Source of the DNA: Nesterenkonia alkaliphila
GTDB lineage: Bacteria > Actinomycetota > Actinomycetes > Actinomycetales > Micrococcaceae
Reading direction: 5' to 3'
NCBI RefSeq assembly: GCF_009758175.1
Contig: NZ_WRPM01000031.1
Coordinates: 1-64,000 of the forward strand
DNA length: 64,000 bases
The stretch's first letter is position 1. Each line of letters opens with the position of its first letter. Below, piece after piece: positions 11,061 through 58,007 of the stretch. Under the pieces are notes generated by a model, which saw nothing but the letters and a program-made list of their open reading frames with translations, searched no databases and was not told the DNA's origin. The position numbers and the translations under genes are program-made.

Positions 11061-11489
11061 GTGTCGGTCCAGATTTTGCGCGTTGTGCTGATCGTTCTCA
11101 GCCTGATTCCGCTGGCAACCGGGCTCAACGGAATCGTTCAAGGCCCGCCCGGCCTGCCTGAACCCACTACCGCCACGGCAACTTTGGACAGTGAGTATCG
11201 ATTCGTCAACGTCTTCTGGCTGGGCGCCGGGGGTGTGCTGTTCTGGTCGGCGTGGCAAGTGGTGGAGCGGGCTGCTGCTGCGCGGTTTGTGCTGGTGCTG
11301 GCGGCCCTGGGCGGGTTGGCCCGGCTCTGGTCAGTGGTGCAGACTGACTGGCCGCACCCGATCTTCATCGGCACTATCGTCCTGGAGCTGGTGGTGGTCC
11401 CGGCTGTGATCTGGTGGCACTGGAGGGTCACGCGGGGCGGGGCTCGCCGCCTCTCGCCGGTGGCACAGCTTCAGCAGCAGGGTTCTTGA
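11061..11489 (+). CDS. DUF4345-type small membrane protein
   Basis: A 142-residue protein with four predicted transmembrane segments. It begins ILRVVLIVLSLIPLATGLNGIVQG and includes SEYRFVNVFWLGAGGVLFW, as in DUF4345 proteins, whose function is unknown. It starts at a GTG preceded by GGGGAG. It is divergent from a TetR gene and converges on arsR, whose stop lies inside its last 19 bases. The shared TetR intergenic region suggests it is TetR-controlled. Confidence 0.7.
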   Translation: MSVQILRVVLIVLSLIPLATGLNGIVQGPPGLPEPTTATATLDSEYRFVNVFWLGAGGVLFWSAWQVVERAAAARFVLVLAALGGLARLWSVVQTDWPHPIFIGTIVLELVVVPAVIWWHWRVTRGGARRLSPVAQLQQQGS

Positions 11490-11875
11490 GCGTCTTTGAC
11501 GGTGCGGCTGGCCTGCAGCATGGAGCCCAGGCCGGAGTCAGCGCAAAGCTCAGAGCAGAGGCTCTCCAACGCGCCCGGAACGATGGAGTAGTAAGCCCAG
11601 GTGCCGCGCTTCTCGCGGGTAAGGAACCCGGCATCGGTCAGGATCCGCAGATGGTGCGAGACTGTCGGCTGGCCCAGGCCCAGCGGCTCGGTCATATCGC
11701 AGACACAGGCCTCAGCGTTCTCACCGGCGGCGATCAGCGAGAGCAGGGCGATTCGGTTGGGGTCCCCCAGCGCCTTGAATCGGGCAGCCAGGTCCGCTGC
11801 CCGCTCCGGATCGAGAGTGGAGGACGTTGGAGTTGTGCAGCACTCGGCTGCTGACTCGTGGATCAATGTGCTCAT
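11471..11875 (-). CDS. arsR: ArsR family arsenite-responsive repressor
   Basis: A 134-residue winged-helix repressor. The metalloid site is CVCD at residues 57-60, at the start of the recognition-domain helix. The DNA-reading segment is GQPTVSHHLRILTDAGFLTREKRGTWAYYSI. Extra Cys pairs occur at the N-terminus (ECC, residues 11-13) and as the last two residues, and could add arsenic ligands. It is divergent from acr3, with a 50-bp imperfect inverted repeat between them. The 3' end overlaps the convergent DUF4345 gene by 19 bp. Confidence 0.9.
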   Translation of the reverse strand: MSTLIHESAAECCTTPTSSTLDPERAADLAARFKALGDPNRIALLSLIAAGENAEACVCDMTEPLGLGQPTVSHHLRILTDAGFLTREKRGTWAYYSIVPGALESLCSELCADSGLGSMLQASRTVKDAQEPCC

Positions 11876-11898
11876 CGAGGCCCCCGCAGCTGGCTAGA

Positions 11899-11948
11899 TT
11901 GACGTTTATCGATGTATGAGAGCATACTCGTATATCGACAGACGTCAA
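11899..11948. promoter_or_regulatory. ArsR operator region
   Basis: Two 17-bp arms form an inverted repeat with 14 of 17 positions matching: TTGACGTTTATCGATGT at 11899-11915 and ATATCGACAGACGTCAA at 11932-11948. A smaller perfect palindrome, GTATG-AGAG-CATAC (11914-11927), lies between them. The region separates divergent arsR and acr3 and is AT-rich relative to its surroundings, as expected for a divergent operator-promoter. Confidence 0.75.
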
Positions 11949-11968
11949 TATTCTTGGGAAAGGTTCCT

Positions 11969-13087
11969 GTGCCCTCAACAGCCACTGCCCCTGAAGCGGC
12001 TCCCGTCGTCGCCCGGCTCTCTGTGCTGGACAAGTTCCTGCCGGTGTGGATTCTGGCAGCCATGGGCCTGGGCCTGCTGATCGCGCTGCTCGCCCCCGGG
12101 GTCGGCCAGCTGCTCCATGCAGTGGAGGTTGCCGGAGTCTCGGTGCCCATCGCCCTCGGGCTGCTGCTGATGATGTACCCGGTACTGGCCAAAGTCCGCT
12201 ACGGGGATACACACCTGGTGCTGCGCGATAAGAAGCTGCTGATCACCTCGCTGGCGATCAACTGGCTGCTGGCCCCAGCGTTCATGTTCGCCCTGGCCTG
12301 GATCTTCTTGCCGGACCTGCCCGAGTACCGCACCGGGCTGATCATCGTAGGCCTGGCTCGCTGCATCGCCATGGTGCTGATCTGGAACGACCTGGCCTGC
12401 GGAGACCGCGAGGCCGCAGCTGTGCTGGTGGCGATCAATTCGGTCTTCCAGATCTTCATGTTCGGCGTACTGGGCTGGTTCTACCTACAAGTCCTGCCCG
12501 GCTGGCTGGGACTGGAGACCACCAGCGCGGAGTTCTCCATCTGGGCGATCACCGTCTCAGTGCTGGTCTTCCTCGGAATCCCCCTGGCAGCAGGCTTCCT
12601 CACACGGGTGCTCGGCGAGCGAGCCCGCGGCCGTCAGTGGTATGAGGAACGGCTGCTGCCCAAGCTCGGCCCCTGGGCCCTCTACGGACTGCTGTTCACC
12701 ATCGTGGTGCTCTTTGCGCTGCAGGGGGAACAGGTGATGGGCAGGCCGCTGGACGTCGCCCGGATCGCGGTGCCGCTGCTGATTTACTTCGTGGTGACCT
12801 TCTGCGCCTCCATGGTGATCGGCCGGCTGCTGGGCATGGACTATGCGCGCACCACCACGCTGTCCTTCACCGCAGCGGGCAATAACTTTGAGCTGGCCAT
12901 CGCGGTGGCAATCGCCACCTTCGGTGCCACCAGCGGCCAGGCTCTGGCCGGGGTGGTCGGCCCGCTCATCGAAGTCCCGGTACTGGTGGGGTTGGTCTAC
13001 GTAGCGCTCTGGGCCCGCCGCTTCTTCTACCGCACCGGGGCCAGCGGTCAGTCGACTATCGCCCATACCCCGCCCACCACCGTCTGA
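11969..13087 (+). CDS. acr3: Arsenite efflux permease, ACR3 family
   Basis: A 372-residue transporter with ten hydrophobic helices. The family block around GLARCIAMVLIWNDLACGD holds the conserved Cys used by Acr3, and AGNNFELAIAVAIATFG lies near the C-terminus. It exports As(III) across the cytoplasmic membrane by proton exchange. I use the GTG at 11969, with AAAGG six bases upstream. The open frame begins earlier, at 11912, but those 19 codons run through the ArsR operator. It is the first gene of the plus-strand ars operon. Confidence 0.92.
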   Translation: MPSTATAPEAAPVVARLSVLDKFLPVWILAAMGLGLLIALLAPGVGQLLHAVEVAGVSVPIALGLLLMMYPVLAKVRYGDTHLVLRDKKLLITSLAINWLLAPAFMFALAWIFLPDLPEYRTGLIIVGLARCIAMVLIWNDLACGDREAAAVLVAINSVFQIFMFGVLGWFYLQVLPGWLGLETTSAEFSIWAITVSVLVFLGIPLAAGFLTRVLGERARGRQWYEERLLPKLGPWALYGLLFTIVVLFALQGEQVMGRPLDVARIAVPLLIYFVVTFCASMVIGRLLGMDYARTTTLSFTAAGNNFELAIAVAIATFGATSGQALAGVVGPLIEVPVLVGLVYVALWARRFFYRTGASGQSTIAHTPPTTV

Positions 13088-13123
13088 AGTCACACCCCTT
13101 CACCCCGACCAAAGGAGAAAGCC

Positions 13124-13546
13124 ATGAACTCGCACACCGATGCAGCTCAGCATCTGCCTACTGTCACCTTCGTCTGCGTGCACAACGCCGGGCGATCTCA
13201 GATGGCCGCGGGGTTCCTCCGGGAACTCGGCGGTGACCGGGTCCGGGTCTACTCCGGTGGCACTCAGCCCGCCGAGGCCGTCAACCCGGTGGCCGTGGCG
13301 GCGATGGCCGAGGTAGGCATCGACATCTCCGGGCGGGGCACCAATGAACTCTCCGCGGATATGCTGCAGGAATCAGATGTGGTGGTCACCATGGGCTGCG
13401 GGGACGACTGCCCCTACTATCCTGGCAAACGCTATGAGGACTGGCCGCTGGAGGACCCCGCCGGTAAGGATCTCGAAGCAGTCCGGCCGATCCGTGACCA
13501 GATCCGTGCCCGGGTCCAGGAGCTGATCGGCTCCCTTGGCGCCTGA
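13124..13546 (+). CDS. arsC: Arsenate reductase, low-molecular-weight phosphatase type
   Basis: A 140-residue enzyme. The CX5R loop is C18-VHNAG-R24, followed by SQMAAGFLRE. The second conserved region is MGCGDDCPYYPGKRYEDWPLEDP. It reduces As(V) to As(III) for export by the Acr3 protein encoded just upstream. In actinobacteria the electron donor is mycothiol/mycoredoxin or thioredoxin, which cannot be told from this sequence. AAAGGAG precedes the ATG, and the stop overlaps the next start by one base. Confidence 0.9.
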   Translation: MNSHTDAAQHLPTVTFVCVHNAGRSQMAAGFLRELGGDRVRVYSGGTQPAEAVNPVAVAAMAEVGIDISGRGTNELSADMLQESDVVVTMGCGDDCPYYPGKRYEDWPLEDPAGKDLEAVRPIRDQIRARVQELIGSLGA

Positions 13547-14784
13547 TGGACACCACACACCCCGTCGTCGTCATCGGGGCCGGCCCAGTGGGTCTGGCCG
13601 CCGCCGCTCATCTGCTGGAACGAGGCCTTCAGCCGCTGGTGCTTGAGGCCGGAGACCACGCCGGGGCTGCAGTCAGCCACTGGGGGCACATCCGGCTGTT
13701 CTCCCCCTGGCAGTACACAATCGACGCCGCCTGCCGCCGTCTCCTGGACCCCACGGACTGGCAGCCCCCGCGCCCCACTGAGCTGCCCAGCGGGGATCAG
13801 CTCGTGCAGAACTACCTGGAGCCGCTGGCCCGCAGCACGGCGCTTCGAGAACGCATCCGGTTCGGCGCCCGGGTCACCGGGATCAGCCGCGGCAGCCGGG
13901 ACAAGACCCATACTTCAGCCCGGCAGGGACAGCCCTTCCTCATCCATGCTCTCCAGCAGGGGCGATGCCTGGAGATTCAGGCCCGCGCTGTCATCGATGC
14001 TTCCGGGACCTGGGACAGTCCCAACCCGCTGGGTGCTGCCGGGCTGCCGGCTGCCGGAGAGGGCGACGCCGCATCAGCACCTCATCTGCTGGGCCCACTG
14101 CCCGATGTGCTGGGCACTGATCGGGACCGGGTCTCCGGGAAGCGGGTCCTGGTGGTGGGTTCCGGGCACAGTGCCACCAATACCCTGCTGAACCTGGCAG
14201 CGTTGAAGCGCGAGGAACCGGCGACCGAGATTCTCTGGGCGATTCGCCGGGACAGTCCCCAGCGCAGCTACGGCGGCGGGGACCAGGACGAGCTGCCCGA
14301 GCGCGGAGCCCTGGGCCAGCGGCTGCGCAGACTGGTGGAGGCAGGGCGGATCACGCTGATCAGGTCAGCCGAGGTACGGGCCCTGGATGTCCACCAGGAT
14401 GCACTGCGGGTCAGTTTCAATGCTGGGCACTCGGAGACTGTCAACGCCCTGGCCGCCGCCACCGGCTTCCGCCCTGATCTGGGGATTCTCCGGGAGCTGC
14501 GCCTGGACCTGGACCCGGCAGTAGAGGCTCCGGTCCGGCTCGCGCCGCTGATCGATCCCCAGCTGCACTCCTGCGGCACGGTTCCGGCCCATGGGGCTGA
14601 GGTGCTGGCCCATCCGGAGGAGGGATTCTTCATCGCGGGTATGAAGTCCTACGGCCGTGCCCCGACCTTCCTGCTGGCTACCGGTTACGAGCAGGTCCGC
14701 TCCATCGCGGCGCATCTGGCAGGTGATAACGCCGCCCCGCGGGAGCTCAATCTCCCGGCAACTGGGGTCTGTGCCGCAGAATGA
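13546..14784 (+). CDS. FAD/NAD(P)-binding flavoprotein of the ars operon
   Basis: A 412-residue flavoprotein with two dinucleotide folds: GAGPVGLAAAAHLLERGLQPLVLEAG at the N-terminus (split around GLQP) and VLVVGSGHSATNTLLNLA (about residues 200-217). SHWGHIRLFSPWQYTIDAACR is typical of the flavin monooxygenase-like proteins found in actinobacterial ars operons, sometimes labelled ArsO. It starts on the last base of the arsC stop, so it belongs to the operon. A role in arsenic redox or organoarsenical chemistry is inferred from context only. Confidence 0.7.
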   Translation: MDTTHPVVVIGAGPVGLAAAAHLLERGLQPLVLEAGDHAGAAVSHWGHIRLFSPWQYTIDAACRRLLDPTDWQPPRPTELPSGDQLVQNYLEPLARSTALRERIRFGARVTGISRGSRDKTHTSARQGQPFLIHALQQGRCLEIQARAVIDASGTWDSPNPLGAAGLPAAGEGDAASAPHLLGPLPDVLGTDRDRVSGKRVLVVGSGHSATNTLLNLAALKREEPATEILWAIRRDSPQRSYGGGDQDELPERGALGQRLRRLVEAGRITLIRSAEVRALDVHQDALRVSFNAGHSETVNALAAATGFRPDLGILRELRLDLDPAVEAPVRLAPLIDPQLHSCGTVPAHGAEVLAHPEEGFFIAGMKSYGRAPTFLLATGYEQVRSIAAHLAGDNAAPRELNLPATGVCAAE

Positions 14785-16001
14785 GAGGTATGCGCCCCAC
14801 CCTGCCTGTCATTCTGGCCGGGCTGTGCATCACTCAGATCACCGCGTGGGGGATCCTCTACTACGCCTTCCCAGTGCTCTCGGCCAGGATCGCAGAGGAC
14901 ACCGGCTGGTCGGTGGCATCCACCACAGTGGGCTACTCCGCGGGCCTGGTGGTCTCGGCAGTGCTGGGCATCCCGGCGGGCAAGCTGTTGGACCGCAGGG
15001 GCCCACGCCTGGTGATGACCGCCGGCTCGGTGATCGGGGCACTGGCCGTGGGGCTCATCGCGTGGGCGCCCACCTACTGGGTGTTCCTGGTTGGCTGGCT
15101 GCTGGCCGGGGTGGGTATGACCGGGACGCTCTATCCGCCGGCCTTTGCCGCAGTGACACGTTGGTACGGCCCCCGGCGGGTCTTCGCGCTGACTGTGATC
15201 ACGCTGATCGGCGGGCTGGCCAGCACGGTCTTCGCCCCGGTGACCGAGGCGCTGGCTGAGGCTTTCAGTTGGCGGCAGGTCTACCTCATTCTGGGGGTGA
15301 CATTCGCGGTGATCACGGTGCCGATGCATGCGGTGATTCTGCGCCGCCCCTGGCCACGGCACGAACAGCACACCGCAGGGGCAGCAGACGAGGGCGCCGC
15401 GGCGGAGGACCGCTATGCCCGCCGGGTGATGCGCTCAGGCCCTTATCTGCTGATGACCCTCGGCTTGACCCTGGGATCCTTCGCCATGTTCGCCGCAATG
15501 ATCAACCTGGTGCCGATGCTCACCGCCCGCGGGGTGGACTCCGCCCTGGCCGCCTGGGTGTTGGGACTGGGCGGGCTCGGCCAGGTGCTGGGGCGTCTGT
15601 TCTACTGGGCCATGGAGCGCGGCATGAGTGTGCGGGCCCGCACCGTGCTGATCTACAGCCTGGTGGCAGTGACCACCGCAGCACTGGCACTGGACTGGAC
15701 CAATGCGGTCTGGCTGATCGCCATCTCCATGGGTGCCGGGGTGGGCCGGGGGATCTCGACCCTGCTGAAGGCCACTGCGGTGACTGACCGCTGGGGTACC
15801 CGGGCCTATGGCCGGCTCTCCGGGGTCTTCAATGCTCCGGTGATGTTCGCCATCGCCATCGCCCCAGCGGCAGGAGCCTGGCTGGCTGAGCTGATGGGCA
15901 GCTGGGAGGCGATGTACCTGGTGCTGGCTGCAGTAGGTGCGGCGGGCGTCGTCGCGCTCTTCTTCTCCGTCCCTCGTGGGGCACCGACCCAGACTGAATA
16001 G
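14781..16001 (+). CDS. Major facilitator superfamily transporter of the ars operon
   Basis: A 406-residue protein with twelve transmembrane segments. The loop 2-3 motif is GKLLDRRGPRLVMTAG. It begins with an ATGA overlap on the preceding flavoprotein gene, and a second ATG lies three codons in. As the last gene of the ars operon it may export the product of the flavoprotein or an alternative arsenic species. The sequence alone does not give the substrate. No terminator is obvious in the 56 bp before the HNH gene. Confidence 0.75.
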   Translation: MRGMRPTLPVILAGLCITQITAWGILYYAFPVLSARIAEDTGWSVASTTVGYSAGLVVSAVLGIPAGKLLDRRGPRLVMTAGSVIGALAVGLIAWAPTYWVFLVGWLLAGVGMTGTLYPPAFAAVTRWYGPRRVFALTVITLIGGLASTVFAPVTEALAEAFSWRQVYLILGVTFAVITVPMHAVILRRPWPRHEQHTAGAADEGAAAEDRYARRVMRSGPYLLMTLGLTLGSFAMFAAMINLVPMLTARGVDSALAAWVLGLGGLGQVLGRLFYWAMERGMSVRARTVLIYSLVAVTTAALALDWTNAVWLIAISMGAGVGRGISTLLKATAVTDRWGTRAYGRLSGVFNAPVMFAIAIAPAAGAWLAELMGSWEAMYLVLAAVGAAGVVALFFSVPRGAPTQTE

Positions 16002-16057
16002 TCGGTGGTCCCCGCCGGACAATCAGCATGTCCGGGGGTCTTAGTAACGTTAATCAC

Positions 16058-17356
16058 ATGGACAACGAGCACGGATTCCCCGATCCGGAGCTGCCGGAGA
16101 ACCTAAGCCATCTGGCAGACATCCCGGAGCTGGCTCTGGCATGGGACCACGCAGTGGCCTCCCGCCGGGAGACCGCCAGGCAGTTCAGTGCCCTGCTGGA
16201 TTACCGCAACCGGTGCCGGGAAGAGGCAGCTGGCCGGCACCTCTTTGCCCGATCAGCTGCGGACCAGGCCGCGGTTCGTGATGCGGGCCTGCTGCTGGGC
16301 CTGGGTGAGCGCACTGCCACGATCATCCTCAACCAGGCCGCGGAAGTCAGAGAGGTGCTGCCCCTTCTGTGGGCTCGATTCCAGGCTGGGGCGGTGTGCC
16401 TGGACCGGCTTCGCAAAGTTGCTGCTGCCACAGTCCCCATTGCTGACCGGGAGGACCTGCTGGCCGTCCTGGACCAGGAGGTCTCACAGCTGGCCGCAGC
16501 GATGAACCCCGGGGAGCTGAAGCACTGGTTGGCCCGCCGGATACCTGAGCTCGATGCGCAGCTGTACGAACAGCGGGCAGCTCGGGCCAAGGAGGACAGG
16601 TATGTGCGAATCGAGCATCTCGACGACGGGATGAGCTTCATCGAAGCGCTGATTCCCACAGCTGAGGCAGTTGCCCTCCAGCGCAGGCTCAAGGCCGTCG
16701 CCCGGTCAATGAACCTCCCCCAACCGGCAGACGAGGAGCAGGACTCCCGGCCCGGCGGTGAAGCCGCCGGTCACCCGGGCGCAGCGGAGGGCGATGACCG
16801 CACCCTTGCGCAGAAGGAAGCGGACCTCTTCAGCGCCTGGCTACGGGATGGGCGCTGCTACGGTGCCCCGGTCTCAGCCAAAATCTGCGTGATGGTCTCA
16901 GAAGAGACGCTCACCGGTCAGAGCAATGAACCAGCCCTGGGCGCCGATCGCTCCTGGGTGCTGCCGGCAGCAGATATTCGTAAGCTCGCCACTGATCCAG
17001 GTGCCGAGCATGAGTGGTACGCCGCCCTCACCCGGAAGAGCACCCGGGGTGCCGACCGAGACATCCTCGCGGTGGTCTATTCGGGTCGCTTCGCCCCCGA
17101 ACGGCTCAAAGACGCCATCATTTTCAGGGACGGCATATGCCAAGCTCCGGGGTGCACGGCCCCGGCAGAACGTTGCGACCTCGACCACATCGTTCCCTAC
17201 GACCGGGACGGTCCCACCAGCGCGGAGAATCTGTGGGCCCTGTGCCGCAGGCACCACAAGATGAAATCCCATGGCTACCTGCCTGCACCACCCCGCGAAC
17301 CCCCTGACGCTGGGGCTGACCGGCCTGAACCTCGAGCAGAAGCACGAGCAGCCTGA
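16058..17356 (+). CDS. DUF222 / HNH endonuclease domain protein
   Basis: A 432-residue protein with an N-terminal DUF222 helical domain (13E12-repeat type, residues about 10-270). A C-terminal HNH motif follows: RDGICQAPGCTAPAERCDLDHIVPYDR, split at its centre, then LCRRHHKMKSHG. Such proteins are abundant, often multicopy, in actinobacterial genomes, and their role is unclear. I chose the ATG at 16058 because TAACGT lies seven bases ahead, giving a leaderless start. The ATG at 16028 is possible but has only a weak ribosome site. The C-terminus is rich in P, D, R and A. Confidence 0.8.
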   Translation: MDNEHGFPDPELPENLSHLADIPELALAWDHAVASRRETARQFSALLDYRNRCREEAAGRHLFARSAADQAAVRDAGLLLGLGERTATIILNQAAEVREVLPLLWARFQAGAVCLDRLRKVAAATVPIADREDLLAVLDQEVSQLAAAMNPGELKHWLARRIPELDAQLYEQRAARAKEDRYVRIEHLDDGMSFIEALIPTAEAVALQRRLKAVARSMNLPQPADEEQDSRPGGEAAGHPGAAEGDDRTLAQKEADLFSAWLRDGRCYGAPVSAKICVMVSEETLTGQSNEPALGADRSWVLPAADIRKLATDPGAEHEWYAALTRKSTRGADRDILAVVYSGRFAPERLKDAIIFRDGICQAPGCTAPAERCDLDHIVPYDRDGPTSAENLWALCRRHHKMKSHGYLPAPPREPPDAGADRPEPRAEARAA

Positions 17357-48921: not shown

Positions 48922-50088
48922 ATGACTGACACCTTTTCCCCTGTCGCCACAGATAACGACGACGCCCGCACTGCCTCGGTGCCCCAGCAGCCGGCTGAGG
49001 GTGAGCTCCGGCCCTATACTGCGATCCTGCTGGCCAGCTTCGGCGGGCCCGAGGGCCAGGACCATGTGATCCCGTTCCTGCGCAATGTCACCCGCGGCAA
49101 GGGCATCCCGGATGAGCGGCTGGAGGAGGTGGCCACCCACTACCGGGCCAATGACGGAGTCAGCCCGATCAACCAGCAGAATCGCGACCTGATCGCCGCC
49201 CTGGAGACTGAGTTGGCCGGCCGGGAGATCGATCTTCCCATCTACTGGGGCAACCGGAACTGGGACCCCTACTTCGCTGACGCCTTCAAGCAGCTGGCCG
49301 CGGACGGGCATCAGGATGTGCTGGTGCTGGTGACCTCGGCCTATGCCGGCTACTCCAGCAATGACCAGTACCTGGAGGACTTCGAGCGGACCCTGGCGGA
49401 GACCGGGCTGAAGGGCCAGCTGAACCTGGTCAAGGTCCGCCAGTTCTTCTACGACAAAGCCTTCACCCGGCCCAATGAGGAGTTTCTGGCCGCCGGGGTC
49501 CAGGATGTGAGGTCCCAGCTGGCTGGAGCCGGTAGGCCTGACGGGAAGATCAAGGTGCTCTTCGTCACCCATTCCATCCCTACTGCGGTGGCCCAGCGCC
49601 AGGGTCCGGCCCGGATCAAGGAGCTATTCGGCACCGATGTCTACACCGCCCAGCACCAGGCGATCGCTGACTACCTGATGGGGGCAGTGGCTGAGGCCGA
49701 GGGCATCGACTACCAGGTGGTCTTCCAGTCCCGTTCCGGCAGCCCGGAGACCCCGTGGCTGGAGCCGGATATCAATGACCAGATCGAGGAGGATGCGGCA
49801 GCCGGGTATGCCGGCGTCGTCGTGATGCCCTTCGGGTTCATCTCCGATCATATGGAGGTCATCTGGGACCTCGACACCGAGGCCAAGGAAACTGCCCAGG
49901 AGCAGGGACTGGCCTTCCACCGGGCGCCCACCGTGGGCACCCACCCGGAGTTCATCTCCGGACTGGTGGACATCATGGGCGAGTACATCGCCGGTGAGGG
50001 CGGGCAGCCGCTGGCCAGCGGTGAGCAGACCGTGCCCGGGGACTGGTCAGACCTGACCACCGAGGGCGGCTGGGACACTCCGCTCTGA
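48922..50088 (+). CDS. cpfC: Coproporphyrin ferrochelatase
   Basis: A 388-residue ferrochelatase (hemH type). AILLASFGGPEGQDHVIPFL opens the domain and VLFVTHSIPTAV contains the metal-site His. FQSRSGSPETPWLEPDI and VVMPFGFISDHMEVIWDLD complete the active site. It inserts iron into coproporphyrin III. About 25 polar N-terminal residues precede the domain and encode a copy of the iterated 11-mer (DNDDA). It starts two bases after the chdC stop and overlaps hemC by one base. Confidence 0.93.
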   Translation: MTDTFSPVATDNDDARTASVPQQPAEGELRPYTAILLASFGGPEGQDHVIPFLRNVTRGKGIPDERLEEVATHYRANDGVSPINQQNRDLIAALETELAGREIDLPIYWGNRNWDPYFADAFKQLAADGHQDVLVLVTSAYAGYSSNDQYLEDFERTLAETGLKGQLNLVKVRQFFYDKAFTRPNEEFLAAGVQDVRSQLAGAGRPDGKIKVLFVTHSIPTAVAQRQGPARIKELFGTDVYTAQHQAIADYLMGAVAEAEGIDYQVVFQSRSGSPETPWLEPDINDQIEEDAAAGYAGVVVMPFGFISDHMEVIWDLDTEAKETAQEQGLAFHRAPTVGTHPEFISGLVDIMGEYIAGEGGQPLASGEQTVPGDWSDLTTEGGWDTPL

Positions 50089-51113
50089 TGGCTGAGACCT
50101 TCCGCGTGGGCACCCGCGGCTCCAAGCTGGCACTGACCCAGACCCGCACTGTGGCGGAGGCTCTGGCTGATCTGGCGGGCCTGGAGGCACAGCTGGTGAC
50201 CATCAAGTCGGAGGGTGACGTGCTCACCGGGCCGCTGAGCCAGCTCGGCGGGACCGGGGTCTTCGCTGCAGCCCTGCGTCACGCGCTGTTCGAGGACCAG
50301 GTGGATGTGGCAGTGCACTCGTTGAAGGACCTGCCGGCCAAGGATCTTCAGGGGCTGAGCATCGCCGCGGTGCCGGTGCGCGCCGATGTGCGCGATGCGC
50401 TCTGTTCTGCGGATGAGCTGACCCTGGAGGAGCTGCCTGAGGGCGCCAAGGTGGGGACCGGCTCGCCACGCCGGGCGGCCCAGCTGCTGGTGGCCCGCCC
50501 CGATCTTCAGATTGTGGATATCCGCGGCAATGTGGGCACCCGCCTGGCCCGGGTGCGGGGGCGTGAGGAGCTGGCGGAGGCTTCCAGCCAAGCCCCCGAC
50601 GCCGCCCGCGGCGACTTGGATGCGGTGGTGCTCGCCGGTGCCGGGCTGGCCAGGCTGGGGCTGGATGACCAGATCTCCGAGCTGCTGCCACCTGAGGTGA
50701 TGCTGCCGGCACCTGGTCAGGGTGCCCTGGCCGTGGAGGTCCGCGAGGCGGATGCCTCGCTGGGCCAGCCGCTGGGGATCGGCCTGGCCCAGCTGGAGGA
50801 TATCGACTCCCGCCTGGAGGTCACCGCCGAACGCGCGCTGCTGGCTCGGCTGGAAGCCGGCTGCGCAGCCCCGATCGGAGCTCTGGCACGGTGCACAGCG
50901 GAGCCCGACGGGGGAGTGATGCTGCGTCTGGATGCCGTAGTGGTGGCTCCCGACGGTTCGGACGCCCAGCGCGCCGGGGCCGAGATCACCCTGGAGGCCG
51001 GTGCGGAGCGTTCCTCGGGCATCGAACAGTCCGCCACCCTCGGCACCCAGGTCGCAGAAACCCTGCTGGACGAGGACACCGGCCTGCTGAAGCATGTCAC
51101 CGGCACGCACTGA
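50088..51113 (+). CDS. hemC: Hydroxymethylbilane synthase
   Basis: A 341-residue porphobilinogen deaminase. FRVGTRGSKLALTQTRTVAE is the start motif, and VAVHSLKDLPAKDLQGL the substrate-site region. GTGSPRRAAQLL and DIRGNVGTRLARV follow. The dipyrromethane-attachment Cys is in LEAGCAAPIGALA. It starts on the last base of the cpfC stop. In most relatives hemD would follow directly; here about 2.8 kb of accessory genes intervenes. Confidence 0.94.
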   Translation: MAETFRVGTRGSKLALTQTRTVAEALADLAGLEAQLVTIKSEGDVLTGPLSQLGGTGVFAAALRHALFEDQVDVAVHSLKDLPAKDLQGLSIAAVPVRADVRDALCSADELTLEELPEGAKVGTGSPRRAAQLLVARPDLQIVDIRGNVGTRLARVRGREELAEASSQAPDAARGDLDAVVLAGAGLARLGLDDQISELLPPEVMLPAPGQGALAVEVREADASLGQPLGIGLAQLEDIDSRLEVTAERALLARLEAGCAAPIGALARCTAEPDGGVMLRLDAVVVAPDGSDAQRAGAEITLEAGAERSSGIEQSATLGTQVAETLLDEDTGLLKHVTGTH

Positions 51114-51144
51114 GCGGCCGTCTTCGATCTCCGAGCCTGTTCAT

Positions 51145-51171
51145 ATACTTGCCTGGGCAGAACACAAGTAT
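51145..51171. promoter_or_regulatory. Inverted repeat upstream of the repeat-protein gene
   Basis: ATACTTG (51145-51151) and CAAGTAT (51165-51171) are perfect 7-bp arms 13 bp apart. They lie 14 bp before the start at 51186, in the AT-richer segment after hemC. Possible operator or promoter element of the insert. Confidence 0.4.
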
Positions 51172-51185
51172 GTTGAGGGGGTTGT

Positions 51186-51581
51186 ATGAGTGCCATTGTT
51201 GCTGAGACAGTCGATCTTGACCGCGCTCGGGGGGAGATTCAGACGATTGTGGATCTTGGGCAGAGAGCTGGCATTGACTCAGCTGAGCTGCGGCAGCGTC
51301 TGAAAATCTTTTACCCAATGGTGCCCGAGCATGAGCTGGCATCAGTCATCGGCATCGAGCAGGATGAGCTTCGCGACAAAGTCTCGAAGCGAGACTACGA
51401 GGAGGCACAGGCAACCACTTCGGTGTACTTTGCTGTAGCGCGGGAGAACAACCAGAAACCCGTCAGCGTGCCCCATGCCGTACTGGATACCAAGACTGCA
51501 TGGTTAGTCGCTGTCAGGGCGGGCCTGCGGGACTATCCCGAACTGCCCGGTACGGTGCTGTGCCAGGTGCTCGCCGGTTAG
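51186..51581 (+). CDS. N-terminal part of an unrecognised, apparently frameshifted gene
   Basis: 131 residues with no family I recognise. The helical N-terminus (GIDSAELRQRLKIFYPMVPE) could be a helix-turn-helix. It starts with GGGGG five bases upstream of the ATG. It stops at TAG 51579-51581, while the next frame reads on from just that point as LAYAQEQAKRG with normal-looking coding sequence. Adding one base after the last GG restores one protein (AGLAYAQ). I infer a single gene of about 579 codons broken by a one-base deletion; a sequencing error is possible. Base composition is lower in GC than the haem genes on either side. Confidence 0.55.
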   Translation: MSAIVAETVDLDRARGEIQTIVDLGQRAGIDSAELRQRLKIFYPMVPEHELASVIGIEQDELRDKVSKRDYEEAQATTSVYFAVARENNQKPVSVPHAVLDTKTAWLVAVRAGLRDYPELPGTVLCQVLAG

Positions 51582-51634
51582 CGTACGCTCAGGAGCAGGC
51601 CAAACGTGGCGCTGAAGCAGTGCCTTCACTCTCC

Positions 51635-52924
51635 ATGCCTGCGTACAACGCACAGAGAGAGGCCTTTTTTCGCGAGGACCTGGGCCTGACAGCCCGTGAA
51701 CTGAAACAGCAGGGTGTCAGCCGTTGGCCGCTTCCGGTCACCCAAGTACGGGATAAGTTCAAGAAAGTCTGGGGCAGCGGCTATGGATGGCACCGGAGTC
51801 TCGAAAGGCTCGATCTGCGGGCCACCAAACCGGTCCGGACCACCGCCGACGAATGTCGCTTTGCTCCTCTGAAGTTCGCCCAGTGGGCGGCGGACAACGG
51901 CGAGCCGCTCAACGGCGGGAGGTACCAGGTCTGGCGGCAGACGCACACCGTGGATGAGCCGCCGACGCGCCAGACTCTGGAGCGGAACCTGGAGGCGAAG
52001 ATTGACGGGAAGACCCTCCCCAATCTCATAGAGATCGCAAGGGAAGAACTGCTTCACTCCTGTCGCGAAGCAGTATCAGAATTCTTCGAGGACCAGAAGC
52101 CCGGAGAGGACTACGATCCTGTCCTCTACGAGGGCTGGCATGCGGATCAGGCCGAGGAAGGCATTGACTACCCTCCGCGGGAGGCCGTAGAAGCGCTGGC
52201 CTCAGACGTGTGGGCGAAGAAGCGCACAAAGTGGCGTGACGAGGACGCCGTGCGGCAGGAGTGCCGCACACTGTTCCGCGAGTTCTGCCTGAGCTATCCC
52301 GAATCGGATACTCCACCCAGTAATGAGGACTACGAGACGTGGTGCGCGGGCCAAACCCTGGATATTGAGCCCCATCCGGGGCACCAGGTCGTGGAATCCT
52401 TGGGACGGGACATCCCCACGCTGTGGGAGCGTTGGCGCAGTGATGTTCAGGCAGCCTTGGAGAGCGCAGCCGAAGACTTCTTTGCCGCTGAGTCATCTAC
52501 TTCCATGCCCGCCATCGAGTCTTTCTACCAGTGGATGCGTGCAGCAGATGAGCGTCCTCCTGCCGCTGAACTGCTCTCCGCCCAGAGGTGGCGTGCCCTG
52601 TGGCGGAACTGGAGCCAGGGCGCTGGAAGCCAGGCGCGGGTAGCCCGTGAACGCTTTTTCTCCAAGGCCTGGGAAGACGGTCATAGGAAAGCCGACTACA
52701 CGACGCTGAAGCTCCCCTACGAGACTTGGCGTCAGGACCATGAAGGTGCAGACGGCGGTGCGCTGCCGCCCTGGTCACAGATAGAGGTCTACGGTGACTG
52801 GGCTGAGAAATGGCCGGAGTACCGAAAGTCCCGGCGCAACGAGAAATGGCTCCCTGCCATCATCCCGAGCCTGGTCTTCTTCCTGCTCGGCTTTGTGGTT
52901 TCGCTCGTCATACCCTGGGCTTAG
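51635..52924 (+). CDS. Tail-anchored membrane protein with W/Y repeats
   Basis: 429 residues from the first ATG of the frame; the frame is open from 51500. Five imperfect repeats of about 45-70 residues share a core of F-x(12-17)-Y-x-x-W, then 11-14 residues and PP or P. Examples are KFAQWAADNGEPLNGGRYQVW, cut here as the first, and YEGW, YETW, QRW and YETW in the others. The pattern resembles homing-endonuclease-associated HNH_repeat modules. One hydrophobic helix at the extreme C-terminus anchors the protein with the repeats in the cytoplasm. No enzymatic motif is visible. It is probably the continuation of the gene at 51186. An ADP-ribosylglycohydrolase gene follows at 74 bp. Confidence 0.6.
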   Translation: MPAYNAQREAFFREDLGLTARELKQQGVSRWPLPVTQVRDKFKKVWGSGYGWHRSLERLDLRATKPVRTTADECRFAPLKFAQWAADNGEPLNGGRYQVWRQTHTVDEPPTRQTLERNLEAKIDGKTLPNLIEIAREELLHSCREAVSEFFEDQKPGEDYDPVLYEGWHADQAEEGIDYPPREAVEALASDVWAKKRTKWRDEDAVRQECRTLFREFCLSYPESDTPPSNEDYETWCAGQTLDIEPHPGHQVVESLGRDIPTLWERWRSDVQAALESAAEDFFAAESSTSMPAIESFYQWMRAADERPPAAELLSAQRWRALWRNWSQGAGSQARVARERFFSKAWEDGHRKADYTTLKLPYETWRQDHEGADGGALPPWSQIEVYGDWAEKWPEYRKSRRNEKWLPAIIPSLVFFLLGFVVSLVIPWA

Positions 52925-52998
52925 GACAATTCAGTCTCGGTACCGGGTGACAGAGTTGTTCTCCTAGGCAATGGGAAGCAATGCTTGAGGAGGCGCTT

Positions 52999-53931
52999 AT
53001 GAAGAATCACCTGATGGGGATGTTCATCGGACTGGCAGTGGGTGATGCCCTGGGCCGCCCGATTGAGGGCAACGACCCCCGGCAGGTGCAGGGGATGGAG
53101 GATGGCGGTCCGTTCTCGCTCAGCCTTCCGGCCGGCTACTGGACCGATGACACCTCCATGGCGCTCTGCTTGAGCGACTCTCTGCTGGAGCAGGGCCGCT
53201 ATGACAGTTATGACGTGATGCAGCGCTACAGCCGGTGGGCCGCCCAGGGATACCGCAGCTCCACCGGGGTCTGCTTCGACATTGGTGGCCAGGTCCGCCG
53301 GGCGCTGGCTGACTTCGAGACTGCCCCGGAGGTCGGCGAGACCGAGCCCCGTACCGAGCGGGCCGGAAACGGGTGCATCATGCGCTTGGCTCCTGTGGTG
53401 ATTGCGGCACTGGCAGTTGGGGGCGACGTCGGGTGGCTCTCCAGGATGAGCGGGCGGGAGACGCACTACTCGGAGCTTGCCGAGCATGCCACGGAGATCT
53501 TCGGTGAGATGCTGGAACGCGCCGCGACCGCAGGAGCACAGGGCGGGCGCAAGGAGAGTATCTACCCCTCAGCAGGTACCAACCCGGAGCTTGCCCGCAG
53601 GCTGCATGCCGCGGCAGATAAGTCCGCGGAGGAGCTGACTCCCAGCGGGTTCGTGGTGGACACCTTGGAGGCGGCTCTCTGGGCGTTCATGACTGCTGAG
53701 GACTTCGCCGCCGGGGCGCTGAAGGCGGTGAACCTGGGCGGGGACGCTGACACCATCGGCGCTGTCTATGGCCAGCTGGCCGGCGCCTACTACGGCCTCA
53801 CCGAGATTCCTGCCGAATGGCGCGGCGACCTTCACGACTACGAGGAACTGCTCCGAGTCGCCGAGGCGCTGGCCTCTCTGGGTAGTCTCAGCGCGCCCAG
53901 AACCCGCTTCGCCGAGGACAACCCCCGGTAG
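52999..53931 (+). CDS. ADP-ribosylglycohydrolase family protein
   Basis: A 310-residue protein. GLAVGDALGRPIEGND opens the fold and WTDDTSMALCLSDSLLE contains the first metal cluster. GNGCIMRLAPVV and NLGGDADTIGAVYGQLAGAY supply the second set of Asp ligands. Two Mg ions would cleave ADP-ribose from protein, DNA or small molecules. GAGGAGG lies seven bases ahead of the ATG at 52999; an ATG six codons upstream is less likely. It is inserted, with the repeat-protein gene, between hemC and hemD. Its stop codon is the start of the hemD -10 box. Confidence 0.88.
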   Translation: MKNHLMGMFIGLAVGDALGRPIEGNDPRQVQGMEDGGPFSLSLPAGYWTDDTSMALCLSDSLLEQGRYDSYDVMQRYSRWAAQGYRSSTGVCFDIGGQVRRALADFETAPEVGETEPRTERAGNGCIMRLAPVVIAALAVGGDVGWLSRMSGRETHYSELAEHATEIFGEMLERAATAGAQGGRKESIYPSAGTNPELARRLHAAADKSAEELTPSGFVVDTLEAALWAFMTAEDFAAGALKAVNLGGDADTIGAVYGQLAGAYYGLTEIPAEWRGDLHDYEELLRVAEALASLGSLSAPRTRFAEDNPR

Positions 53932-53940
53932 CCTGAGGTG

Positions 53941-54645
53941 GTGCGCATTATCCTGACCCGAGCTGCTGAGGCCGCCGGAGCACTGGAGTCTGGCCTGCAT
54001 GAGGCAGGGCATGAGGTGCTGCACCTGCCCCTGACCCAGCAGGTACCGGTACAGGATTCCGGACAGCTCACCACGGCGCTCGCAGACCTCCATGCCGGGA
54101 GGTTCAGCTGGCTGCTGCTCACCAGCGGGAACACTGTGCGGTTCCTCAGCCGGGCCGGCTGGGACGGGAGCCTGCCGGAGCAGACGCGGATCGGCGTGGT
54201 CGGACCTGGGACTGCCCGGACTCTGGAGCATCTCACAGGACTTGCCAGCCCATGGCGGCCCCGGCAGTACAGTGCTGCCGGGATTCTGACCGAGCTCCCG
54301 CCCCCGGCGGCCCAGGATCGAGTGCTGCTTCCCCAGTCAGCCCGGGCCCGGCCTGCCCTTGCGGAGGGTCTCCTCGAGCGCGGCTGGCAGGTCACTCAGG
54401 TCTCCGTCTATGACACTGTGCCCGTGGAATGCCCGGATGTGGGCACCCTCCGCTGCGGCGACGTCGTACTGGTCACCAGTTCCAGTGCTGCTGAAGTATG
54501 GGCGGGCCTGGCAACGCCTGAGGTCACCGTTCTGGCCATTGGCCAGCCCACCGCTGAGACCCTCCGGCGGCTGAGCAGGCCGGCCGCCGCCGTCCTCCCC
54601 GAACCTACCGCGGCAGGGGTGCTCGAGGTTCTCAGCAGACCCTAG
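53941..54645 (+). CDS. hemD: Uroporphyrinogen-III synthase
   Basis: A 234-residue protein of the weakly conserved HemD fold. [18 protein letters not shown] opens domain 1, FSWLLLTSGNTVRFL and GVVGPGTARTLE lie in the middle, and DVVLVTSSSAAEVWAGL near the end. These match the usual landmarks. TAGCCT (53929-53934), whose TAG is the stop of the previous gene, is followed by six bases and GTG 53941. It is therefore likely leaderless with its own promoter, which would uncouple it from the insert. A GTG three bases upstream is the alternative start. Confidence 0.88.
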   Translation: MRIILTRAAEAAGALESGLHEAGHEVLHLPLTQQVPVQDSGQLTTALADLHAGRFSWLLLTSGNTVRFLSRAGWDGSLPEQTRIGVVGPGTARTLEHLTGLASPWRPRQYSAAGILTELPPPAAQDRVLLPQSARARPALAEGLLERGWQVTQVSVYDTVPVECPDVGTLRCGDVVLVTSSSAAEVWAGLATPEVTVLAIGQPTAETLRRLSRPAAAVLPEPTAAGVLEVLSRP

Positions 54646-54660
54646 GATGCGCGGGCCTCC

Positions 54661-56727
54661 TCAGACGAGATCCCGAGGGATACTGCGCTCCCTGTTCTGC
54701 GAGTACACCCTGGGGCTTCCCTGCTGCTCGTCCAGCTCGTAGGCATCGAGCTGGGCGTTGATGAGAAAGTGCTCCCGGGTGGAGGTCAGCACAGTACGAG
54801 TCACGACTTCCACCCGCCAGTCATCGCCTCGCTCCAGTCTGCGGACAGTGCGCGTCTCACCTCGAACCGAATTCACATCGTTCCAGCGGAAGCTGTACCA
54901 CTCTCGGGTGTCCCGGTGGATCACGGTGCCGGTGTCTTCGATCCGGAAGGAGCCCTGGTCGTTGATGATCTCCAGCGTGGAGACATCAGTGGCCAAGTCT
55001 CTGGTGACCTGCCAGGACTGGGTCCCGGGCGAGAGGGTGGTGATCTCCTCCTCCGGGGTTGCCTCGGGCGGGCCGAGGGGTCTGAGGCCCTCATCCTCGG
55101 CACGTGGCTGGCGCACCGGCAGGTAGAGTGCGCTGCCTGTGGTCTTGACCGTCACCATCGCAGGCTCGGGGGCCGGCCAAATGAGCGGCCAGTACGAGGT
55201 GGAGATGGAGATGCGCAGGCGATGTCCGGCAGGAAAGGACTGTGCGACGCCGTTGAGCTGAACCTCCACGTGGTAGGTTCGGCCGGGCTCCAGGGGCTCA
55301 GGGTGCTCACTGTCCTCCCGGTGGGTCAGGTTCAGCACCCCGTAGGTGACGCGTGTGGCTTCCCCGTTCGGTGCGACATCGGAGAGACGCACTGCCACTT
55401 GGGCCACCGGCCGGTCCGCTGAGACCTCCAGCGCCACACGAGGCAGACCGAGGATCTCCGTGGTCTCTTCAAGCGGGCTGGTTTCGAATACCAGCGCTCC
55501 GCCGGCCTCTTCGCGCTGGTCATAGGGCAGGTCCGGCACGGCCGAGTAGGAGGCCCATTTCCCGGCGAACATGCCTACGCTCAGCGGGGACTGGATGCTC
55601 AGCTCCTCAGCCGCGGACTCCCCAGGATCACCAACGGGGTCATCGGTCTGACCGCTGGGCACCAGATGGTGGGCGGTGAACCGGTACTCGCGCTCTTCGA
55701 TCCCCGGCGCAGGCCAACTCTGCTCGGCGACCCAGCGGCCGGGCCGCTCAGCGTAGGAAGCGCTGGGCGGGACGCTGTCCTGCATCCACGCCCGCAGCAT
55801 CGGCTCCTGTTCCACACCGGTGTCGAGACCCTTGAGCCAGTGGTCCCACCAGCGCACCATCTCCTTCAGGAAGCCGACAGCTGGTCCTGGCACACCGAGA
55901 TGGGGGTAGCGGTGTCCCCATGGGCCGATCAGGCCCTTGCGGGGGACGTCCAGATTCTCCAACAGCCGGAAGATTGCGTTGGTGTAGCCATCAGCCCAAC
56001 CACCCACAGTCATTACCGGGCATTTCACCTGGGTGTAGTCCTCACAGACCGAGGCCGGCTTCCAGTAGTCGTCGCGGCGTTGGTGCTGCAGCCAGGTCTC
56101 CAGCCACAGACCGCTTCCTTCAAGCCGCTGATGCCACATCTGGCGCCAGCGGTCTCCTACCACAGCCGGGTCAGGGGGCATGCTGTTGAAGGCAAACATG
56201 ACTGTGGCCTCGGAGAGGTTGTCGCCCAGGAGGCACCCGCCCATGTAGTGCATATTGTCCACGTAGAGGTCGTCGGTGGCTGAGGCGCTGATCACCGCTT
56301 TCACAGCGGGCGGGCCGAACGCCGCCATCTGGAGGCTGTTGAAGCCGCCCCAGGAAATGCCCATCATCCCGACACTGCCATCACACCAGGGCTGCTCTGC
56401 GAGCCAGTTGATGACGTCAGTGGCGTCCTCATGCTCCTGTGGGCGGTACTCATCCACCATGACTCCGTCAGAGTCACCACTGCCGCGAAGGTCCACCCGG
56501 ACACAGACGTAGCCGTGTCCAGCCATATAGGGGTGCAGGCTCGCATCCCGACCACGCGTGGCATCACGTTTCCGGTACGGGATGTACTCCAGGACCGCCG
56601 GCACCGGGTGCTCGAGAGCATCGGCGGGCATCCAAACCCGCGCGGCGACGCGTTGACCACCCCGTAACGGGATGAAGACGTTCTCAATGGTCTCTACAGC
56701 GTGGGGCAATTCGTCTACAGTCGTCAT
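54661..56727 (-). CDS. CocE/NonD family alpha/beta hydrolase (peptidase S15 type)
   Basis: A 688-residue hydrolase. The nucleophile elbow is MMGISWGGFNSLQMA (Ser about residue 126). The acid lies in GGWADGYTNA and the His in GPWGHRYPHLG. An X-Pro-peptidase-type C-terminal jelly roll carries PAGHRLRISISTSYWPLIWP. The family cleaves amide or ester bonds of acylated amino compounds. There is no signal peptide, so it acts in the cytoplasm. It overlaps the upstream ATP-grasp gene by one base. Both lie between hemD and hemB, in opposite orientation to the haem genes. Confidence 0.83.
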   Translation of the reverse strand: MTTVDELPHAVETIENVFIPLRGGQRVAARVWMPADALEHPVPAVLEYIPYRKRDATRGRDASLHPYMAGHGYVCVRVDLRGSGDSDGVMVDEYRPQEHEDATDVINWLAEQPWCDGSVGMMGISWGGFNSLQMAAFGPPAVKAVISASATDDLYVDNMHYMGGCLLGDNLSEATVMFAFNSMPPDPAVVGDRWRQMWHQRLEGSGLWLETWLQHQRRDDYWKPASVCEDYTQVKCPVMTVGGWADGYTNAIFRLLENLDVPRKGLIGPWGHRYPHLGVPGPAVGFLKEMVRWWDHWLKGLDTGVEQEPMLRAWMQDSVPPSASYAERPGRWVAEQSWPAPGIEEREYRFTAHHLVPSGQTDDPVGDPGESAAEELSIQSPLSVGMFAGKWASYSAVPDLPYDQREEAGGALVFETSPLEETTEILGLPRVALEVSADRPVAQVAVRLSDVAPNGEATRVTYGVLNLTHREDSEHPEPLEPGRTYHVEVQLNGVAQSFPAGHRLRISISTSYWPLIWPAPEPAMVTVKTTGSALYLPVRQPRAEDEGLRPLGPPEATPEEEITTLSPGTQSWQVTRDLATDVSTLEIINDQGSFRIEDTGTVIHRDTREWYSFRWNDVNSVRGETRTVRRLERGDDWRVEVVTRTVLTSTREHFLINAQLDAYELDEQQGSPRVYSQNRERSIPRDLV

Positions 56728-58007
56728 TACTCGTCTTCTACGGGGTCGAACTCGAAGGTCAGAATCTGAAGCGCCTGCTGAAACTTAGCTGCCAGCTCAT
56801 CGCGATTCTCGGCACCGAGGTACAGATCGCCCAGTCTGAACCGGTAACTGTCCTGGTGCGGAAGCTCGGACAGCTGATCCCCTGGGGCGACGTCGATGCT
56901 CACCTTTGTGCCGGCGATGCTGCGCTCCACCTCGGCGATCTCCTCCTGGTCCGGCACTCGCCGGACGATGCCGTCGGTCTCACGGGTGATGCGCCATTGG
57001 GCTGCCACTTTGAATGGGCCCTCATGGCGGGGCATGTGGGGAGTCTCCCCGAGGGCGACGTCGATAGCGACCTCGTGGTTGGAGGTGCCGTCGACCTTGA
57101 GAAACAGATCGCTGTGAGACTGAGAGATCCTGGTGTTGACCTCGATCAGCCGCAGCCGGTCGGTCTGCTCATCCCACATGTACTCGGCGTTGAACGCGCC
57201 GTTGTCGAATCCGATGTGCCGCAGCAGCCGCTCGGTGGTCTCGACTATCTTCTGCTGAACTTCGGGTGGGACGGAGGCAGCCGGGTAGTCCAACCGCTCC
57301 AGGCTCCTACCGGTGGGATCCTTCAGCATATCCACCACACCATGGACGCTGAACTGACCCTGAGTCACGACCCCCTCCGGCTCAACCTGGATACCCGTGA
57401 CGATTTCCTCGGCTAGGCATGTGTTGCCATCAGCTCCACGGAGCTGCTCCGGCAGGTCGACCCGGCTCAGCACCTGATTGAACGCATCGCCAATATCGGT
57501 GATCTCCTGCCGGATCTCGGCAACGGCGTGCCGGAAGTCCTCCTCATTGCGGACCTGGAACCCCAGGCTGGAGGAATGGGCCTTCACGGGCTTGACCCAG
57601 CACGGGAAGGGCAGGTCGATGCTGTCCAGGGCGTCATCGTCGAAGGGGTCGAAAGCGGCGAATCCGGGGACCACCTCGGGGACTGCCTCACGCTGCATCA
57701 GACGACTCCAATACTTGTGTTCGCACTGGAGCATACTGGTCAACGTCGGTGCAGGTATACCTCGTTCCTGGGCCAGGATCGGTGCGAGCATCGAGCTTGG
57801 AAAATCCCAATGACACACGATGGCGTCCACCGAGCCGCCGAACTCATCGAGTTCAGCGCGGGCCCGGCGCAGCAGATCGTCGAAGTCATGGTTTGTCTCC
57901 ACGACCAAGGTTTTGTGGTCCAGAAGCGGATGAAACCTGAAACGATCGGCTCCCCTCACGCTCTCCAGTTCTTCGCGGTGCGGTTCCGTGAGGCCAAGGA
58001 CAAACAC
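56727..58007 (-). CDS. ATP-grasp domain ligase
   Basis: A 426-residue ATP-grasp protein. An N-terminal preATP-grasp fold covers about residues 1-100. PFPCWVKPVKAHSSSLGFQV is the ATP-site strand and loop, and VEPEGVVTQGQFSVHGVVDM the lid. RLIEVNTRISQSHSDLFLKV is the metal-binding signature with Glu and Asn. It should join a carboxylate to an amine or thiol with ATP. The start is uncertain: GTG 58007 lacks a ribosome site, and plausible coding (SATQARN) extends upstream without ATG. It is paired with the CocE-type hydrolase, suggesting synthesis and hydrolysis of the same amide. Confidence 0.75.
   Translation of the reverse strand: MFVLGLTEPHREELESVRGADRFRFHPLLDHKTLVVETNHDFDDLLRRARAELDEFGGSVDAIVCHWDFPSSMLAPILAQERGIPAPTLTSMLQCEHKYWSRLMQREAVPEVVPGFAAFDPFDDDALDSIDLPFPCWVKPVKAHSSSLGFQVRNEEDFRHAVAEIRQEITDIGDAFNQVLSRVDLPEQLRGADGNTCLAEEIVTGIQVEPEGVVTQGQFSVHGVVDMLKDPTGRSLERLDYPAASVPPEVQQKIVETTERLLRHIGFDNGAFNAEYMWDEQTDRLRLIEVNTRISQSHSDLFLKVDGTSNHEVAIDVALGETPHMPRHEGPFKVAAQWRITRETDGIVRRVPDQEEIAEVERSIAGTKVSIDVAPGDQLSELPHQDSYRFRLGDLYLGAENRDELAAKFQQALQILTFEFDPVEDE

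Follow-up and report, generated by a model that had tools for sequence, protein, structure and literature searches.

The 64,000-nucleotide stretch of Nesterenkonia alkaliphila DNA analysed here (the window; contig NZ_WRPM01000031.1, positions 1 to 64,000 of the forward strand) contains a haem operon in which hemC and hemD are separated by 2,824 bp (51114-53937) of coding DNA in the direction of the operon. The genes follow in the order hemE, hemG, hemQ, hemH, hemC, the insert, hemD, an insert on the opposite strand, hemB and hemL; those other than hemC and hemD bear names which we assume from their sequence and order, and they served as tblastn queries in the comparisons below. With hemC ending at 51113 and hemD starting at 53938, the measured gap agrees with the roughly 2.8 kb given in an earlier sequence-only reading of this DNA. 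The insert holds two overlapping frames, orfA and orfB, followed by a gene for an ADP-ribosylglycohydrolase (ARH), and the locus comprises the following features:

50088 to 51113, forward strand: hemC, hydroxymethylbilane synthase, the left flank of the insert (PF01379, E value 3.4e-70; TIGR00212 above cut-off)
51145 to 51171, no strand assigned: dyad ATACTTG-13-CAAGTAT, upstream of orfA
51186 to 51581, forward strand: orfA, 131 residues, of low GC content, with a GAGGGGG ribosome site and without known family
51500 to 52924, forward strand: orfB, an open frame of 474 residues with a C-terminal membrane helix, its coding part probably beginning at about 51560-51640
52999 to 53931, forward strand: ARH, 310 residues, PF03747, with its start behind GGAGG
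53938 to 54645, forward strand: hemD, uroporphyrinogen-III synthase (PF02602, E 1.9e-38), starting 6 bp past the ARH stop

Comparison within the genus supports hemC-hemD as a plastic, cargo-collecting junction of the haem operon. Twenty-nine genus genomes, some of them drafts or incomplete, were fetched around hemD, and the hemC-hemD distance, taken between the ends of tblastn matches, was measurable in 26, with L191 and L210 cut by contig ends and hemC not in reach in L200; matches to hem genes below 38% identity (60% for hemL), on the opposite strand or spanning more than 3 kb were set aside before counting. The distance is 23-130 bp in 13 of these relatives and 381-4,178 bp in the other 13, the gap of L187 including a masked run, and the earlier statement that hemC and hemD are normally adjacent therefore holds for the first half but not for the second. 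At hemC-hemD, 13 of 26 distances exceed 300 bp, compared with 6 of 153 at the remaining hem junctions (Fisher p 9e-9, a value that ignores the relatedness of the genomes), which supports the previously suggested view of the operon as a landing site. The six cases are distributed over hemD-hemB (3/29), hemG-hemQ (2/25) and hemE-hemG (1/24), and none occurs at hemB-hemL (0/28), hemQ-hemH (0/21), hemH-hemC (0/21) or hemQ-hemC (0/5). In the nearest relatives by HemD, G004 and G001, hemC and hemD lie 130 and 45 bp apart.

Besides the cargo of the window, at least four unrelated cargo sets are present at hemC-hemD in the genus. These include an ABC transporter with an FtsX-like permease, an NmrA-type reductase and, in L187, a DUF222-HNH gene together with a glyoxalase and a ROK protein. 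An all-against-all grouping yielded a transporter set (L188, L202, L205 and L210), a lipoprotein/NmrA set (L201, L206, L207 and L209), a small membrane protein set (L189, L204 and L211) and L187 by itself; a link between the cargos of L187 and L202 (74 residues, 38%) was judged spurious and set aside beforehand, and the junction stretches of L203 and L184 have no convincing gene. The cargo of the window shares no protein match at an E value of 1e-8 with the 14 other junction stretches. No integrase or transposase was found by Pfam in ten cargo proteins of the relatives, nine from hemC-hemD and one from hemD-hemB, three of which are without any family and among which the L210 stretch is cut by the contig end; the remaining cargo frames were judged by eye. 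No tRNA was found in the window and no direct repeats of 14 bases or more bracket the insert, a length that leaves room for shorter target duplications, and a landing marked by an integrase, a tRNA or repeats was rejected for want of any sign of these. A literature search found no paper joining hemC, hemD and Nesterenkonia.

Other variation was seen along the same operon. Five relatives (L190, L194, L196, L197 and L203) have no hemH match between hemQ and hemC, so that hemQ adjoins hemC, and in L203, in reverse orientation, hemG and hemQ are separated by about 5.4 kb of additional DNA that holds several genes. The opposite-strand insert between hemD and hemB of the window (54661-58007, reverse strand) carries two genes, one for an S15 hydrolase of CocE/NonD type and one resembling ATP-grasp ligases, and a DUF222-HNH gene of the same kind as in the hemC-hemD cargo of L187 is located in the window at 16028-17356.

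The last gene of the insert belongs to a widespread known family. With a longer start at 52981, its product aligns with PF03747 from end to end (E 1e-57, 196.4 bits against a gathering cut-off of 26.2), which confirms the ADP-ribosylglycohydrolase recognized earlier, and the start at 52999, behind GGAGG, is the better one. Of the 44 alignment columns with a conservation of 90% or more among 141 homologues, the protein keeps 43, the exception being G24, which is mostly F elsewhere. Among the residues kept in conserved columns are E23, T49-D50-D51-T52, T155-H156, D249, D251 and T252, the E, TDDT, TH and DxDT elements of which we take to be the active site. The active site thus appears intact and the enzyme would be expected to be catalytically active; a binuclear metal site and a TH motif are given for this enzyme family in the passages of PMC9503650 that deal with it.

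The nearest solved chain is 2cwc (identical in sequence to 2yzv and 2yzw), named an ADP-ribosylglycohydrolase and aligned to ARH residues 9-307 of 316 with an E value of 5.5e-63; in its listing the chain carries this name and no further function. The best NCBIfam match is Tri1 (NF041672, ADP-ribosylarginine hydrolase; 217.1 bits, cut-off of 490 not reached), and 6dre, which we take to be Tri1, is matched at an E value of 4.3e-46; in contrast to Tri1, no toxin family was found in the insert or in the flanking genes scanned. DraG (TIGR02662, dinitrogenase reductase-activating glycohydrolase; 152.9 bits, cut-off of 337.05 not reached) is of the same family, but no nitrogenase or DraT gene is found in the insert. 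Enzymes like the ARH can also reverse phosphate-linked ADP-ribosylation of RNA, SCO5809 being an example in the relevant part of PMC11833690, and by analogy several linkage types may be possible in the substrate.

The ARH is absent from the other 29 genus genomes searched (1/30, its own). Some ARH is found in 125 of 248 genomes of the order, its own included, and the 29 best matches after its own are 47%, 42% and otherwise 29-38% identical. In a quick tree of 142 rows, with support from the Shimodaira-Hasegawa-like approximate likelihood ratio test (SH-aLRT) and without bootstrap, the window ARH pairs with that of L071 (SH-aLRT 97), a phage-like contig from an uncultured bacterium with large and small terminase and methylase genes of phage type, and then with genes of Schaalia and Actinomyces (92), apart from the ARHs of the same-family genomes G036, G211 and G268. 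Among 50,697 phage records, 48 contain relatives, whose identity does not exceed 39.5% in the 20 matches listed, and at an E value of 1e-20 relatives are present in 47 of 72,556 plasmid records, 44 of these 47 being predicted non-mobilizable. As a single query the ARH found none in viral contigs, and an alignment query found 32 loci there; a further set of named ARH loci consists of the best 80 of at least 576 confirmed. Because the gene is missing in the 29 genus genomes, groups with the phage-like L071 and has relatives in phages and plasmids, the simplest reading would be that it is an accessory gene, acquired horizontally from outside the genus.

Upstream of the ARH, orfA and orfB overlap in different frames. 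Codon preference, trained on the hem genes, follows the orfA frame to about 51510 and the orfB frame from about 51570, which places the switch of frames within about 51510-51600; GAGGGGG precedes the ATG of orfA, and no comparable ribosome site is found at any candidate start of orfB. The overlap contains no classical -1 slippery heptamer, and a frameshift site of that kind was rejected on this ground. The assembly is a draft of 103 contigs, in which a base error would look the same as a frameshift. The two frames could possibly be one gene with a frameshift break, whether real or a draft error, an unusually frameshifted gene, or two coupled genes. OrfB has 22 Trp and ends in a hydrophobic helix (Kyte-Doolittle mean of 2.74 over 19 residues from residue 453, the best value elsewhere being 0.22), and self-comparison reveals weak units of about 65-70 residues: the best self-diagonal scores 59, whereas shuffles average 40 and 10 in a set of 500 score at least as high. 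In the tail-anchored repeat protein of the sequence-only reading, the C-terminal membrane helix is accordingly clear, but the coding runs over two overlapping frames and the repeat is weak.

No family in Pfam, NCBIfam, PHROG or PADLOC is matched above cut-off by either protein, the match of orfA to TfoX_N (E 0.15) lying below it. The predicted structures, made without relatives, are poor, with a mean predicted local distance difference test score of 42.9 for orfB and 50.2 for orfA; a Foldseek search with the orfA model gave 157 matches at E up to 10 and none at E 0.001, and orfB has a single match to PDB sequences, at E 0.64. The low guanine-cytosine (GC) content attributed to the whole insert is found in orfA (58.1%; 0.65 at third codon positions, GC3) and orfB (61.8%; GC3 0.70), but not in the ARH (66.5%; GC3 0.81), whose values fall within the spread of the seven measured hem genes (65.3-73.3%; GC3 0.75-0.86), and as a mark of the entire insert it was rejected. 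The dyad ahead of orfA is the sole match to its pattern within the window and has no match in 100 shuffles, the pattern having been picked after being seen; as RNA its stability is no better than that of shuffles (z -0.93), and it is a possible operator or promoter element. No sigma-70-like promoter was found in 50900-54100.

Relatives of orfA and orfB were found nowhere outside their own genome, which accounts for the single hit in each search: 1/19 relatives and 1/396 order genomes for orfB, 1/198 for orfA, and 1/395 family genomes for a query reading through both. Nothing was found for orfB in genome contigs, plasmids, phages or viral contigs, nor for orfA in viral contigs, nor for either in 149 fetched loci (146 ARH neighbourhoods, 29 of them with flanks of 1.5 kb only; five are longer stretches from genomes that were counted before). 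The combination of orfA/orfB with an ARH has been seen once, in this genome, and all three proteins, when compared with the anti-phage defence models of PADLOC, gave nothing at E values up to 1. The defence or stress module envisaged earlier is thus unsupported, since orfA/orfB have no relatives in any search and the pair occurs once, and its failure to recur, which the earlier reading had named as its refutation, is due solely to that lack of relatives.

Taking together the insert and its anatomy, the family and conserved active-site columns of the ARH, its patchy distribution and the plasticity of the junction, all computed here, we lean, with slightly better than even confidence, towards two accessory items that merely lie together at a receptive hemC-hemD junction, namely an acquired stand-alone ARH eraser and an unrelated orphan orfA/orfB. 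As the last gene before hemD, the ARH would probably be on the haem operon transcript and lead straight into hemD translation. It would cut ADP-ribose off macromolecules modified by outside enzymes, such as phage transferases or the toxins of rivals, and for the ARH alone a role as an eraser against foreign ADP-ribosylation is plausible. OrfA/orfB, for which we infer no link to the ARH, would be a fast-evolving orphan gene whose product is anchored in the membrane at its C-terminal end; it is now read in two frames that overlap, and may be disrupted or decaying.

Several points weigh against this reading. The genes orfA, orfB, ARH and hemD follow each other on the forward strand, with 74 bp and 6 bp between successive genes from orfB on, an arrangement that a functional operon would show just as well. 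In G036, which has a distant ARH system and is of the same family, the protein beside the ARH is akin to a repeat protein of a type to which orfB bears a weak resemblance, and the ARH substrate is not readable from the sequence. Finally, a Pfam scan that took in the insert, its flanking genes hemC and hemD and the next two genes beyond hemD found no transferase or sirtuin, but other transferases may be present in the genome, where only DarT (no match, the control having rung in 1 of 14 genomes) and PF01129 (an uninformative search, the control having rung nowhere) were sought.

The insert might instead be a decaying passenger: orfA/orfB would be what a frameshift has left of a larger gene that had been acquired, with the ARH as a companion of little use. 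One continuous codon signal over two frames, the missing ribosome site of orfB, the lower GC and the lack of relatives all accord with decay, but orfB stays open for about 447 codons past the overlap and the ARH retains all but one of its 44 conserved columns, so that selection has acted recently on both; a base error in the draft cannot be told from a frameshift. We consider this explanation unlikely, if worth keeping in mind.

A two-part conflict module, in which orfA/orfB does the sensing or binding from the membrane and the ARH supplies the enzyme, would be a divergent relative of the ARG-centric systems, and we regard it as quite doubtful. Such systems, in which an ARG domain occurs without a genomically coupled transferase or sirtuin, are proposed in section 3.8 of PMC9503650 to counter viral ADP-ribosylation, and as described there a Nudix or WYL regulator, a phosphatase or a chaperone is each found in only part of them. 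The window ARH likewise has no coupled transferase among the genes scanned, but the insert contains no Nudix, WYL, phosphatase or TY-Chap family, and a search of the genome for TY-Chap3 gave nothing at E 0.001. A different ARH in G036, of the same family of bacteria, likely forms an ARG-centric system with its neighbours (L221, 7005-10499 and 11312-12025). At its C-terminus this ARH runs into a phosphatase-like stretch that stays under the Pfam cut-off for PF00782, and it is neighboured by a 74-residue Sigma70_r4 frame, a 533-residue TY-Chap3-domain protein and an NrtR-type Nudix regulator, partners by which the gene set fits the systems of that section. The 533-residue protein matches the L070 repeat protein at E 5.2e-6 and probably also resembles the homing endonuclease associated repeat (HEAR) proteins; however, Pfam finds no PF18780 on it, L070 itself falls short of the PF18780 cut-off, and the match of the G036 protein to the HEAR profile is by construction, one of its repeats being in the profile. 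The window ARH, besides, falls in a clade other than that of G036.

The resemblance of orfB to HEAR (PF18780, HNH_repeat) is a weak lead. HEAR proteins with Sigma70_r4, such as that of L068, are similar to orfB in their unit pattern of Y/F..W and P and weakly in profile, but orfB differs from them in having a C-terminal membrane helix and no Pfam match, and the similarity is unstable. When six orfB units were compared with HEAR as profiles, 0 of 200 shuffled and realigned sets reached the score (likewise 0 of 200 in an easier column-shuffle null), but the hhalign probability is 13.7%, and with an orfA unit added as a seventh the score falls and is reached by 10 of 100 nulls. Against a HEAR profile, orfB scores 1.9 bits and orfA -0.1 bits, and no frame of the window is matched at E up to 1; PF18780 has no Pfam match to orfA or orfB at E up to 1 and 0 matches in the genome. 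Of 12 pairwise alignments between orfA/orfB stretches and HEAR-bearing or G036 proteins, four were better than chance taken alone (orfA with the 420-residue L068 protein, 2/200 shuffles; orfB with L070, 6/200; orfA and the start of orfB with the 533-residue G036 protein, 1/500 and 16/500) and eight were not (45, 118, 84 and 60 of 200; 88, 85, 206 and 119 of 500). No HEAR match was found at E <0.5 in the set of 80 named ARH loci described above, or at E up to 1 in the 32 viral loci; G018 has an ARH some 2 kb away from a PF18780 match, the latter in a gene that by eye reads like a helicase. A bolder version, a membrane-anchored ARG-centric variant that would draw on this weak similarity and one same-family case, is a new anti-ADP-ribosylation system in which a fast-evolving, HEAR-like, tail-anchored two-frame protein would sense ADP-ribosylated molecules or draw them to the membrane for the ARH to remove the modification, the whole riding the haem operon; we think it very improbable.

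Still harder to credit is a toxin-antitoxin pair in which orfB would be the toxin and act on the membrane, to which a small gene overlapping a larger one behind it and the dyad upstream of orfA could point, but neither orfA nor orfB matches a toxin or antitoxin family and, to our knowledge, a tail-anchored protein of 450 residues is unlike the known small membrane toxins. The least probable explanation, that the ARH serves the haem pathway itself, for example by de-modifying HemC or HemD, would suit its position 6 bp ahead of hemD but not its absence from the 29 other genus genomes searched, each with a hemD match, nor seven ARH neighbourhoods (L063, L064, L071, L072, L074, L115 and L127) of which none, with frames judged by eye, is haem-cluster-like.

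Elsewhere in the window, 11471-16001 encodes an ArsR-like HTH_5 protein, an SBF-family (ACR3-like) transporter, an LMWPc-type reductase and an FAD oxidoreductase, presumably an arsenic-type cluster.

Whichever role the ARH may have, its placement provides a clean test of whether stand-alone erasers protect cells. The plastic junction is, however, the more interesting part: with no recombinase in nine hemC-hemD cargo proteins, the relatives offer a natural small series for how cargo enters an operon without breaking it, and hemC-hemD represents a case of repeated gene gain within an essential biosynthetic operon of an actinobacterial genus.

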